From assembly GCA_013375355.1 (NCBI GenBank), contig JABXJV010000276.1:19467-83466 (forward strand): a DNA stretch of 64,000 bases. The letters are read 5' to 3'. This DNA is from Candidatus Helarchaeota archaeon (GTDB taxonomy: Archaea; Asgardarchaeota; Lokiarchaeia; Helarchaeales; JABXJV01). The translations under genes were made by a program, and so were the position numbers. Below the pieces are notes generated by a model. That model was given only the letters and a program-made list of their open reading frames with translations, was not told where the DNA came from and made no database searches. This document shows positions 23,605 through 47,202 of this stretch, one piece after another (within the stretch, counting starts at the first letter, position 1; every line of letters starts with the position of its first letter).

Positions 23605-23706
23605 TGCTCTGACCGGGATTCGAACCCGGGTCGAAGGGTTTCTCTTTACTGTAGAAATACTGTAATCGAGAGCCCTTTATGCTTGGCCGTGCTACACCAT
23701 CAGAGC
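23605..23706 (-). tRNA. tRNA-Glu (CTC) with intron at 37/38
   Basis: The acceptor stem GCTCTGA/TCAGAGC pairs perfectly, the T-arm is CCGGG-TTCGAAT-CCCGG, the D-arm is GTGT/GCAT and the anticodon stem is AAGGG/CCCTT around anticodon CTC. The mature tRNA is 75 nt after loss of a 27-nt intron; CCA is not encoded (the discriminator A is followed by CCT). The D-arm sequence GGTGTAG...GGCCAA is typical of archaeal tRNA-Glu. Confidence 0.95.
23640..23666 (-). other. BHB intron of tRNA-Glu (27 nt)
   Basis: Canonical position 37/38. Reading the RNA: outer helix AAGGG/CCCUU, core CUCU/AGAG, bulges CGA and AAA, inner helix UUAC-A-GUA/UAC-A-GUAA with loop UUUC. Cleavage CG|A and AA|A leaves the anticodon loop CUCUCGA. 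Confidence 0.9.
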
Positions 23707-34839: not shown

Positions 34840-35550
34840 TTGTCAAATGGTGATAGTTTTGAACGGCATCGTATTGTAGTACCAGGTGAATTAATTGTAG
34901 AAGGTTCTAAATATAGAGCGGGATTTGGAACATTTAAGGAACAAGATAAACTTTATGCTTCTATTATTGGGTTTTCAGAAATTAGAGGAAATAATAATGT
35001 ATATGTAGTTCCCTTCAGTGGACCTTACGTACCTAAAGTTGGTGATATTGTTATAGGAAAGATTATAAATACGTCCATTGTTAGCTGGAAAGTTGATATT
35101 GATTCTCCATATACAGCTTCCTTACATGTTTCAAATGTAATAGACCGGGCATTTAATCCTTTAAAAGATAACATCAAAAATTATTTTGATATTGGACAAA
35201 CTATTGTGGGGGAGATAATTGCATTTAATAGAACAAGAGATCCTGTTTTATCAATAAGAGGTAAAGGTTATGGTAAATTGCGCGGAGGAAAAGTAATAAA
35301 AATTGCTTCTGCAAAAATACCTAGATTGATAGGAAGAAAAGGTTCTATGATAAATTTAATTAAAGAAGCAACCAAGAGCCAAATCGTAGTTGGACAAAAT
35401 GGTTTGGTTTGGATATATACAAAAAACCTAGAAGATGAAAAATTGTTAATCAAAATTGTTAAAAAAATTGAACAAGAGGCACATACTTCTGGCCTCACAG
35501 ATAGAGTGAAAGTTTTAATTGAAAAGGAAAAAAAAGAAGAAATAAATTGA
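34840..35550 (+). CDS. rrp4: Exosome RNA-binding subunit Rrp4
   Basis: Cap subunit that feeds RNA into the exosome. 236 residues: N-terminal domain (RIVVPGELIVEG), S1 domain (PKVGDIVIGKI) and KH domain (PRLIGRKGSMINLIKEAT). It starts at TTG 34840 with a strong AAGGAGGA about 6 nt upstream. Confidence 0.95.
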   Translation: MSNGDSFERHRIVVPGELIVEGSKYRAGFGTFKEQDKLYASIIGFSEIRGNNNVYVVPFSGPYVPKVGDIVIGKIINTSIVSWKVDIDSPYTASLHVSNVIDRAFNPLKDNIKNYFDIGQTIVGEIIAFNRTRDPVLSIRGKGYGKLRGGKVIKIASAKIPRLIGRKGSMINLIKEATKSQIVVGQNGLVWIYTKNLEDEKLLIKIVKKIEQEAHTSGLTDRVKVLIEKEKKEEIN

Positions 35551-35603: not shown

Positions 35604-36418
35604 ATGGCACTTTTTAAACAAGTCCCAGCTGATTGGTTAATTAAGGATGGAATAAGAAGAGATAATAGAAAAATTGATGAATTAAGACCAATTTCATTGG
35701 AAATGGGATTATTAACAAAAGCAGATGGTTCTGCTTTAATTAATATGGGAAAAAATAAAATTTTGGGCGCAGTTTATGGACCGCGTGAAGTTCACCCTCG
35801 TCATTTAGCCCGTCAAGATGCGGCAGTTTTGCGAGTTCTTTATCGCATGGCTACGTTCGCTTAAATTATGCCAAGTGAATAATTTGGAATAAAGTAGATG
35901 AGAGAAAATCTCCTGCCCCATCTAGAAGGGAAGTCGAACTTTCGTTAATTTTAAGACAAGCTTTGGAATCATCCATATTTCTTGAATATTATCCAAAAAC
36001 TATAATAGATATATATATCCAAGTCCTTTGTGCAGATGGTGGTACACGTTGTGCTGCTGTTACTGCAGCATCGTTAGCTCTAGCAGATGCTGGAATATCA
36101 TTACGCGACCTTGTTTGTGGTGTAGCAGTAGGAAAAATCGCAAATCCTGATCCCCCCACCTTAGTCCTAGATTTATCGGATGTTGAAGATAAAGAAGGTT
36201 CAGGAGATTTACCAGTTGCGATGATGCCACGATCTAAAAGATATACACTTTTACAATTTGATGGACGAATAACATTTGATGAAATGCGTAAAGCCTTGGA
36301 TCTTGCTGAAAAGGGAACCGAAAAAATTAGTCAAATTCAAATTCAGACAATAAAGGAAAAATATAGTCAAATTGATAAAGAAATTGAGACTAAAAGATCA
36401 ATTGAGGGGGATACATAA
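35604..36418 (+). CDS. rrp41: Exosome catalytic subunit Rrp41, interrupted by a BHB intron
   Basis: Catalytic RNase PH subunit of the archaeal exosome (3'-5' phosphorolysis). The unspliced frame stops right after YRMATFA. The downstream part begins VDERKSPAPSRREVELSLIL in another frame and runs to the end. Removing 35861-35892 (32 nt) gives an uninterrupted 260-residue protein: LINMGKNKILGAVYGPREVH, ARQDAAVLRV, LCADGGTRCAAVTAAS and the active-site region EGSGDLPVAMMP are all in place. The ATG at 35604 has AAAGGTG upstream; an in-frame GTG at 35595 is less likely. The stop overlaps the rrp42 ATG (TAATG). A frameshift pseudogene of this essential subunit is unlikely. Confidence 0.93.
35861..35892 (+). 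other. 32-nt BHB intron in rrp41
   Basis: Outer helix CUAC (35851-35854)/GUAG (35894-35897); core GUUC (35855-35858)/GAAU (35887-35890) with one G-U; 5' bulge GCU (35859-35861); 3' bulge AAA (35891-35893); inner helix UAAAUUAU/AUAAUUUG (8 bp, one U-G) with a 9-nt loop. Cleavage GC|U and AA|A joins GC to AGUA, coding Ala-Val. It contains stop codons in frame. Confidence 0.9.
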
Positions 36419-37230
36419 TGGAATCTTTTAAAATCATATCTGAAATCGAAAAATCTCATATAAATTCTCTAGTAAAAAAGAATCAAAGAATTGACGGGAG
36501 AGATTTTTTAGAATATCGAAAAATATCTTTAGAAACAGGTGTAATACTTAAGGCTGAGGGCTCAGCACGAGTTAGAATTGGAAAAACGGAAATTATTGCA
36601 GGCATAAAGATTTCGCTTGGCCCTCCATTTCCAGATACCCCTGATAGGGGAGTAATTACTGTAAATGCTGAACTTACAGCTCTTGCATCTCCTGTATTCG
36701 AACCAGGACCACCAAATGAAAATTCTGTTGAGGTGGCACGTGTAGTTGACAGAGGAATTCGGCATTCGGTAATAGTAGACTATTCTAAATTATGTCTAAT
36801 TCCCGGAAAACAAGTCTTTATCATATTTATCGATCTATATGTCATGTCCTATGATGGAAATATGTTTGATGCAGGAACATTAGCAGCAGTAGCAGCTTTA
36901 CTTTCTACAAAAATGCCAAGGACTAAGATAGTCGATGATGAAGTAGTTGTATTAGGTGAGCAATACGATAAATCAGATTGGTTATCCCTCCCATTTACCA
37001 ATAAAGCAGTTTCAGTTACAACAGCAAAGATAGGAGATAAATTGCTGATTGATCCAAATGAACAAGAGGATCGGATAATGGATGCGCGCCTTACGGTTAC
37101 AGTAGATAAATCTGGAAATATTTGTAGCATACAAAAAGGTAGGAAGGGTTTTTTTACTAAAGATGAAATTTTAAAATGTATAGAGATTACATTAAAAAAA
37201 TCGAAAGAATTACTTCAATACCTACCTTAA
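36418..37230 (+). CDS. rrp42: Exosome subunit Rrp42
   Basis: RNase PH-fold partner that forms the hexameric ring with Rrp41 but is itself inactive. 270 residues: NQRIDGRDFLEYRKISLETG, AEGSARVRIGKTEI, FEPGPPNENSVEVARVVDRGI and YDGNMFDAGTLAAVAAL are family hallmarks. Start overlaps the rrp41 stop by one base, so the two chains are made together. Confidence 0.96.
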   Translation: MESFKIISEIEKSHINSLVKKNQRIDGRDFLEYRKISLETGVILKAEGSARVRIGKTEIIAGIKISLGPPFPDTPDRGVITVNAELTALASPVFEPGPPNENSVEVARVVDRGIRHSVIVDYSKLCLIPGKQVFIIFIDLYVMSYDGNMFDAGTLAAVAALLSTKMPRTKIVDDEVVVLGEQYDKSDWLSLPFTNKAVSVTTAKIGDKLLIDPNEQEDRIMDARLTVTVDKSGNICSIQKGRKGFFTKDEILKCIEITLKKSKELLQYLP

Positions 37231-46517: not shown

Positions 46518-47177
46518 TTGAAAGAAAAAAAGAAAAGATTGTTGGAAAGATATCTTCATTCTAAAACTGCTATATCAGAAAATGTAATTAGGGCGTTCAA
46601 TAACGTTCCTCGTGAAAATTTTCTTCCGGAATCTCAAGTAGAACATGCTTATAACGACACACCTCTTAGTATAGGCCATAAACAAACCATATCTGCCCCT
46701 CATATCTCTTTTATCTACGCAGAGAAATTGGAAATGAAGGAGGGGTTAAAAGTGCTCGAAATTGGAGCAGGTAGCGGTTATAATGCGGCTTTTTTTGCAG
46801 AATTAGTTGCGCCCAAAGGCTCTGAAAATCCAGGTCATATTTTTACTGTTGAAAGACTTCCTGAACTAGCTGAGTTTGCAAGAAAGAATTTGGAAAAAAA
46901 TGGATATGCAGAAACTGTTACTGTGATTATCGGTGATGGAACATGTGGGTATGAAGAAAAATCGCCATATGATAGAATTATTGTGACTGCCGCTGGACCT
47001 GAAGTACCAAAACCTTTAATTGAACAACTTGATATCGGAGGAATCCTTATAATGCCGGTAGGTAAGAAACATTCATATCAAGAATTAGTTTTAATGAAAA
47101 AAACTGCTACTGATGTAATAGAAAAGAAACTGGGTGGCGTAGCTTTTGTTCCTTTAATTGGAAAACACGGGTTTTAA
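46518..47177 (+). CDS. pcm: Protein-L-isoaspartate O-methyltransferase
   Basis: Repairs isoaspartyl residues in aged proteins. 219 residues: PRENFLPES, HKQTISAPHISFIYAE and VLEIGAGSGYNAAFFAEL (SAM loop), then DRIIVTAAGPEVPKPLIEQL. TTG start with GAGGTAG 7 nt upstream. NSUN-type gene follows after 25 bp. Confidence 0.95.
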   Translation: MKEKKKRLLERYLHSKTAISENVIRAFNNVPRENFLPESQVEHAYNDTPLSIGHKQTISAPHISFIYAEKLEMKEGLKVLEIGAGSGYNAAFFAELVAPKGSENPGHIFTVERLPELAEFARKNLEKNGYAETVTVIIGDGTCGYEEKSPYDRIIVTAAGPEVPKPLIEQLDIGGILIMPVGKKHSYQELVLMKKTATDVIEKKLGGVAFVPLIGKHGF

Positions 47178-47202
47178 CAATTATTCAATTTTTTATTAAA
47201 TT

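Follow-up and report, generated by a model that had tools for sequence, protein, structure and literature searches.

A probable tRNA-type intron in the exosome gene rrp41 of a Helarchaeota archaeon, and comparable interruptions in Asgard rrp41 and cbf5 genes

The closest described counterpart of the interruption reported here is the pre-mRNA intron of cbf5, which occurs in Desulfurococcales and Sulfolobales, measures 16-44 nt and has its cleavage sites between bases two and three of the bulges in a bulge-helix-bulge (BHB) motif (PMC2738675). In that study, all but two of the newly predicted structures are unconventional, and control of the host gene by the intron is proposed. The (alpha beta)2 and epsilon2 forms of the splicing endonuclease EndA can excise both relaxed and canonical motifs, according to a second source (PMC6379350). 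For Asgard archaea, the accessible part of a third (PMC11291895) gives introns in 92-95% of tRNA genes in three genomes of Atabeyarchaeia and Freyarchaeia; the hosts are Asgard archaea like the one studied here, but unlike the intron described below, these introns lie in tRNA genes only.

We analyzed a 64,000-nt stretch of a Candidatus Helarchaeota archaeon (hereafter the window), in which the exosome gene rrp41 is interrupted by 32 nt. This intron and the cbf5 intron (PMC2738675) are alike in being short, in lying in a conserved RNA-processing gene, in restoring the protein on excision, in the predicted positions of the bulge cuts and probably in a hetero-oligomeric EndA. They differ in that the window's motif is a canonical 4-bp BHB, its host is an Asgard archaeon and its host gene is rrp41, which places it outside the cbf5 introns proper. 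The initial annotation had described protein introns of this kind as known mainly from Cbf5 of Crenarchaeota; the comparison is apt, but cbf5 introns occur in Asgard genomes too, as detailed below. Among the matches listed in our search of titles and the beginnings of abstracts, drawn mostly from open-access papers, there is no report of an rrp41 intron or of a BHB intron in an Asgard protein gene, and a search of the same literature for Cbf5, Asgard and intron together returned no paper. What appears to be new, and is well supported by the comparisons that follow, is the host gene (rrp41) and the phylum (Asgard), the kind of intron being already known.

The interrupted gene lies on the plus strand in a run encoding proteasome alpha, SBDS, Rrp4, Rrp41, Rrp42 and L37Ae. 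Exon 1 (35604..35860) is open from ATG 35604 and comprises 85 codons and the first two bases of a split Ala codon; its frame ends ...CGC ATG GCT ACG TTC GCT TAA, with the stop codon at 35862-35864, inside the 32-nt insert (35861..35892). Exon 2 (35893..36418) continues in a second frame from 35893 and supplies the third base of that Ala codon, followed by 174 codons (GTA GAT GAG AGA at 35894) and the stop codon TAA 36416-36418. Joining 35860 to 35893, and with it GGCTACGTTCGC to AGTAGATGAGAG at the predicted spliced junction, yields MATFAVDERKSP and a 260-aa Rrp41, which scores 322.5 bits on TIGR02065 (cut-off 318.7 bits), whereas the separate halves fall below this cut-off, with 96.4 bits for exon 1 (profile positions 3-76) and 209.9 bits for exon 2 (positions 78-230). 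The joined protein aligns with 2br2_B, an Rrp41 of known structure, without a gap across the junction (E 2.7e-76). Exact removal of the insert that splits this protein gene restores the conserved protein. These coordinates bear out the initial annotation, in which the frame breaks after MATFA and resumes in another frame at DERKSP, and removal of 35861-35892 leaves an intact Rrp41. The insert is not a group I or group II intron, since it measures only 32 nt and the only Rfam matches in the window at gathering scores are two tRNAs, nor is it an intein, as its length is not a multiple of 3 and it contains a stop codon.

The RNA around the insert can form a canonical BHB, here meant as pairing potential: two 3-nt bulges, a 4-bp helix between them and flanking helices. 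The outer helix pairs CUAC in exon 1 (35851..35854) with GUAG in exon 2 (35894..35897), and the core helix pairs GUUC in exon 1 (35855..35858) with GAAU in the intron (35887..35890). The 5' bulge is GC/U (35859..35861) and the 3' bulge AA/A (35891..35893), while within the intron an 8-bp inner helix of UAAAUUAU (35862..35869) and AUAAUUUG (35879..35886) closes a 9-nt loop (35870..35878). By the published rule (PMC2738675), the cuts fall between the second and third bulge bases, after 35860 and after 35892, and match the exon borders. The protein is restored by no more than two pairs of cuts in rrp41, of which the BHB cut (core 4/4, outer 4, inner 8) is one. At an intron length of 32, a core of 4/4 alone occurs at 2.5% of positions on both strands of the window, and just 1 of the 127,680 combines a core of 4/4 with an outer helix of at least 4 and an inner helix of at least 8. 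The helices, bulges and coordinates agree with those initially annotated; the fold, however, is not the one that RNAfold prefers, as the BHB of a 76-nt stretch reaches -6.5 kcal/mol versus -12.6 kcal/mol for the best fold, and the folding energy of this stretch does not stand out from that of its shuffles (z -0.61). Since the isolated RNA prefers another fold, the enzyme would need to hold or select the BHB.

When we scanned 464 kb (the window and 400 kb of the related genome G091) for BHB-like sites with outer and core helices of 4 and an inner helix of 6 or more, 288 were found, and four of these join open reading frames: rrp41 in the window, rrp41 in G091, and two sites on contig C1 of G091 that were rejected, one of which would fuse a pair of distinct MscS-like genes (identified by eye) and the other a pair of short frames. 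A looser scan of the window gave 247 sites and five such joins, rrp41 among them. The join at 47122-47200 falls by chance between genes for Pcm and an RNA methyltransferase, and in each of the three others, all on the minus strand, the left frame spans no more than 40-47 codons.

Because the 32 nt interrupt rrp41 and can form a canonical BHB, they are most likely a tRNA-type intron. We put at roughly 0.93 the probability that 35861-35892 is cut from the mRNA by the tRNA-splicing endonuclease and the exons are rejoined, a splicing event that we infer from the gene and its relatives. This was also the initial reading, and it stands as by far the best one: the interruption is kept in a second species, it fits the metagenomic relatives, and the gene is under purifying selection. 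In the mechanism we propose, the outer helix and one strand of the core would be built from the flanking exon RNA, EndA would cleave each bulge between bases two and three (behind C35860 and A35892), and RtcB would join the exons to give ...ATF-A-VDERKSP... and the complete 260-aa Rrp41. Left unspliced, the message would be translated from ATG 35604 for no more than 86 codons, and none of exon 2 would be reached. The cell presumably depends on rrp41 splicing.

The genes that this mechanism calls for, splicing endonuclease and ligase, are both present in G091. Two EndA-family genes each are found in all six relatives searched (G091, G092 and four Sifarchaeum-type genomes) and RtcB in five of these six, the one in which it was not found being G007. 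The alpha subunit of G091 EndA, closest to the A. pernix enzyme 3p1z, retains the His that was replaced by Ala in entry 3ajv, and the other subunit likewise resembles EndA.

The window itself contains a tRNA intron for comparison. Its tRNA-Glu(CUC) gene (23605..23706, minus strand; RF00005, 46.4 bits; anticodon by eye), found by Rfam and missed by ARAGORN, has a 27-nt intron (23640-23666, by eye) after position 37, with a canonical BHB (core 4/4, outer 5/5). This canonical 37/38 intron is like that of rrp41 in its 4-bp core, its 3-nt bulges, its 3' bulge AA/A and a cut that leaves a 7-nt loop; it differs in having a tRNA body and a 5-bp outer helix, where the rrp41 intron has no tRNA body and a 4-bp outer helix. 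On G091 contig C3 (622677-631783), we also observe a cluster of 19 tRNA matches, seven of which are over 100 nt long and therefore probably contain introns.

Upstream of rrp41 lies the exosome gene rrp4 (34840..35550, plus strand; NF003181, 260.7 bits), and downstream rrp42 (36418..37230, plus strand; NF003282, 334 bits), whose ATG (36418-36420) overlaps the rrp41 stop codon, such that a failure of splicing could uncouple the translation of rrp42. The same overlap would suit a switch in which EndA cuts the rrp4-rrp41-rrp42 message, the halves stay mostly unjoined and full-length Rrp41 is made only from a minor spliced fraction, and such an idea has a precedent in the control proposed for the cbf5 intron (PMC2738675). 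We nevertheless consider destruction of the message very improbable, given that RtcB is present in five of the six genomes and that selection maintains both exons.

Productive splicing of rrp41 is the reading that agrees best with its close relatives. The related species G091, with ~87% identical DNA over ~49 kb of the window, has the same interruption, and 30 of the 32 intron bases are identical, both changes lying in the loop. The conservation of the stems between the two is itself too weak to count, as exon DNA near the junction is almost equally conserved. By a Nei-Gojobori count, dN/dS between the window and G091 is 0.25 (dS 0.19) and similar in both exons, which indicates that both are under purifying selection. 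It had been suggested at the outset that related Asgard genomes be checked for absence of the 32 nt; the next relative, G092 (67%), does lack them, but closer kin keep the intron. At the window's site, the uninterrupted G092 gene (L093) has the potential for the same 4-bp stem, closing a loop of 7 nt (CUAC...GUGG, by eye), and perhaps such a stem-forming site is predisposed to an intron.

Protein-database relatives of exon 2 extend this comparison. Among the best 120 of 3068 matches, nine relatives at 76-92% identity, including metagenomic entries from jgi and ena, are 151-201 aa long and none has exon 1 in frame (0/9), while the best full-length Rrp41 relative in the same set is 66% identical. 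The nine are not each an independent proof, as P0123 is probably G091 and six come from genomes whose longest contig is <3.2 kb. In P0125, the predicted start reads exon 1 in the wrong frame and runs through the intron; by back-translation, the right frame can encode AAVLRVLYRMATFA at 14/14 positions, and its intron, 28 nt when counted by eye, has compatible stems and a shorter loop. As the exon-2-only entries show, the first third of Rrp41 escapes gene prediction in such genomes. An assembly error or a pseudogene would account for a frame-shifted gene, and rrp41 frameshifts do occur at other places in two MAGs (G597 and G608). We find this hardly credible here, since the same break is present in G091, the jgi and ena relatives have no exon 1 in frame, dN/dS is 0.25 for the window and G091 and 0.16-0.20 for Sifarchaeum-type pairs, and G091 has no second Rrp41-grade copy, its other matches (exon 1, 46.7 and 20.6 bits) falling below that grade.

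The same relatives allow us to weigh a split gene, in which exon 1 and exon 2 would be translated separately, the peptides would assemble and the BHB would be decoration. Possible exon-2 starts within the intron (P0122, MRNRVDERK; P0066, LRNIVDERK) speak for it. In the window, however, the exon-2 frame offers no start codon before TTG 35963, 23 codons in, and P0123 begins at the same place, yet the 23 codons between the intron and this start differ between the window and G091 by 2 synonymous and 0 other changes. Separate translation would also leave unexplained the BHB geometry, the second interrupted lineage and the break of cbf5 in its GTLDP Asp codon, and we regard it as highly unlikely.

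A spliced intron, our preferred reading, gains from the second lineage. In our survey of rrp41, 222 of the 227 genomes of the phylum have a match, 35 of the 227 were re-examined, and the gene is interrupted at the site in at least five: G091, Candidatus Sifarchaeum marinoarchaea (G007) and three further Sifarchaeum-type genomes (G178, G179, G180). Numbers of interrupted genes, here and in the cbf5 survey, are lower bounds. For 149 of 150 rrp41 loci with a match (some genomes counting twice), 122 read through the site intact, 5 show a one-residue difference, 6 are interrupted (from the five genomes) and 16 are uninformative. The Sifarchaeum-type introns measure 33, 33, 32 and 31 nt, lie 5 nt downstream of the window's site and have a core of 4/4 at the better of two protein-compatible cuts in all four genomes; the in-frame BHBs have a U-U mismatch between core and outer helix (outer run 0). 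Their stems hardly vary, and invariance of pairing within rrp41 itself offers weak evidence for a BHB.

The lengths of these introns also address whether the frames could be joined on unspliced RNA by programmed frameshifting or ribosome bypass. The window by itself requires one frame change, as a frameshift would supply, but the Sifarchaeum-type inserts of 31, 32 and 33 nt would need different ones; with three lengths modulo 3, a single frameshift mechanism is ruled out, and two of these inserts have TGA in frame. Ribosome bypass of 32 nt needs matching take-off and landing codons, and GCT and AAA in the window do not match. We give next to no credence to a translational solution.

In a tree of 66 rrp41 sequences, the window falls among Asgard genomes on the side of the Lokiarchaeota (a fork of 13 rows supported at 87/88), and it adjoins, together with G091, the uninterrupted G092 (98/95). 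The Sifarchaeum group (100/100) is placed in a weak fork (80/90) with the uninterrupted G181 and G227. The best tree separates the two interrupted lineages, while a single clade is not rejected (p-AU 0.128); as sites and sequences differ between the lineages, we favor two independent gains. Among the Thermoproteota matches listed (390 of 398 genomes with a match, five re-examined), no rrp41 is interrupted at the site: 13 listed matches have a stop and none, by length, an insert, and the low-scoring genes of G597 and G608, rejected as candidates, have their frameshifts elsewhere.

In cbf5, for which 215 of 227 Asgard genomes have a match at E 1e-20, we observe a break in the Asp codon of the GTLDP motif in at least 14 Asgard genomes; this Asp we take to be the catalytic one of Cbf5. 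In a further two genomes, G171 and G195, the break is in a second copy and the other copy is whole; these broken copies might be foreign contigs. Introns at the GTLDP site are present in 16 genes of the 26 loci examined (L236-L243, L247, L251-L255, L267, L268) and measure 17-41 nt. At the best-scoring protein-compatible cut, the core is 4/4 in 16/16, with a poor outer helix where it adjoins the core (run 0 or 1) in 5/16 and an inner run of 0 in one. G075 (L265) and G077 (L262) have a 42-nt intron at a different site, INLD^KPPGPTSH, with core 4/4 and outer run 1, such that the core is 4/4 at the corresponding cut in all 18 interrupted Asgard cbf5 genes. These introns have the same kind of structure as that of rrp41, the difference being in where they break the gene (GTLDP Asp codon in 16, INLD^KPP in 2). 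The two hosts overlap: each of the Sifarchaeum-type genomes for which both genes were recovered (G178, G179 and G180; 3/3) has introns in both rrp41 and cbf5, and the cbf5 of G091 is whole.

The GTLDP-site introns are varied enough for covariation to be assessed over 15 distinct rows. Pairing is seen in 90.5% of cells versus 78.5% in shuffles, 29 cells are changed on both sides versus 10.6, and the covariation score is 0.505 versus 0.264, none of which is reached by any of 500 shuffles. Double changes are counted in 7 pairs, which 101/500 shuffles attain, and further pair types number 17, which 120/500 attain; neither measure is outstanding, and no double change is seen in the outer helix across these 15 rows. 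Structures slid along the sequence pair at 37-50%, and the core position formed by the third base of a Thr codon is paired with the intron as A-U, U-A or C-G. As rows were aligned on the best-pairing cut, the count leans towards the structure. Taken jointly over rows, Asgard cbf5 introns show exon-intron covariation.

From rrp41 and cbf5, the two genes compared across genomes, tRNA-type mRNA introns appear to recur in Asgard RNA-processing genes. A splicing program in which the tRNA machinery acts on the mRNAs of such genes, with at least two gains in rrp41 and two sites in cbf5, is a tentative extension that we hold to be possible rather than probable; if true, it would tie exosome and pseudouridylation activity to the activity of EndA and the ligase. 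Should rrp41 be spliced as predicted, tRNA-type mRNA introns would be confined neither to cbf5 nor to Crenarchaeota, and one would interrupt a gene central to RNA decay in the archaea that are regarded as closest to eukaryotes. The rrp41 and cbf5 introns offer a direct test of EndA action outside tRNA, and they bear on the origin of introns in protein genes before a spliceosome.

Finally, an insert of ~1.5 kb divides Cbf5 near profile position 174 in five genomes (G019, G077, G168, G039 and G075; L261-L265 with L269-L273). This insert lies within an open frame of 856-902 aa and, at three loci, starts with Cys after GTYIRKL; by eye it looks like an intein. Both the ~1.5-kb insert and the 42-nt intron are present in the cbf5 genes of G075 and G077.
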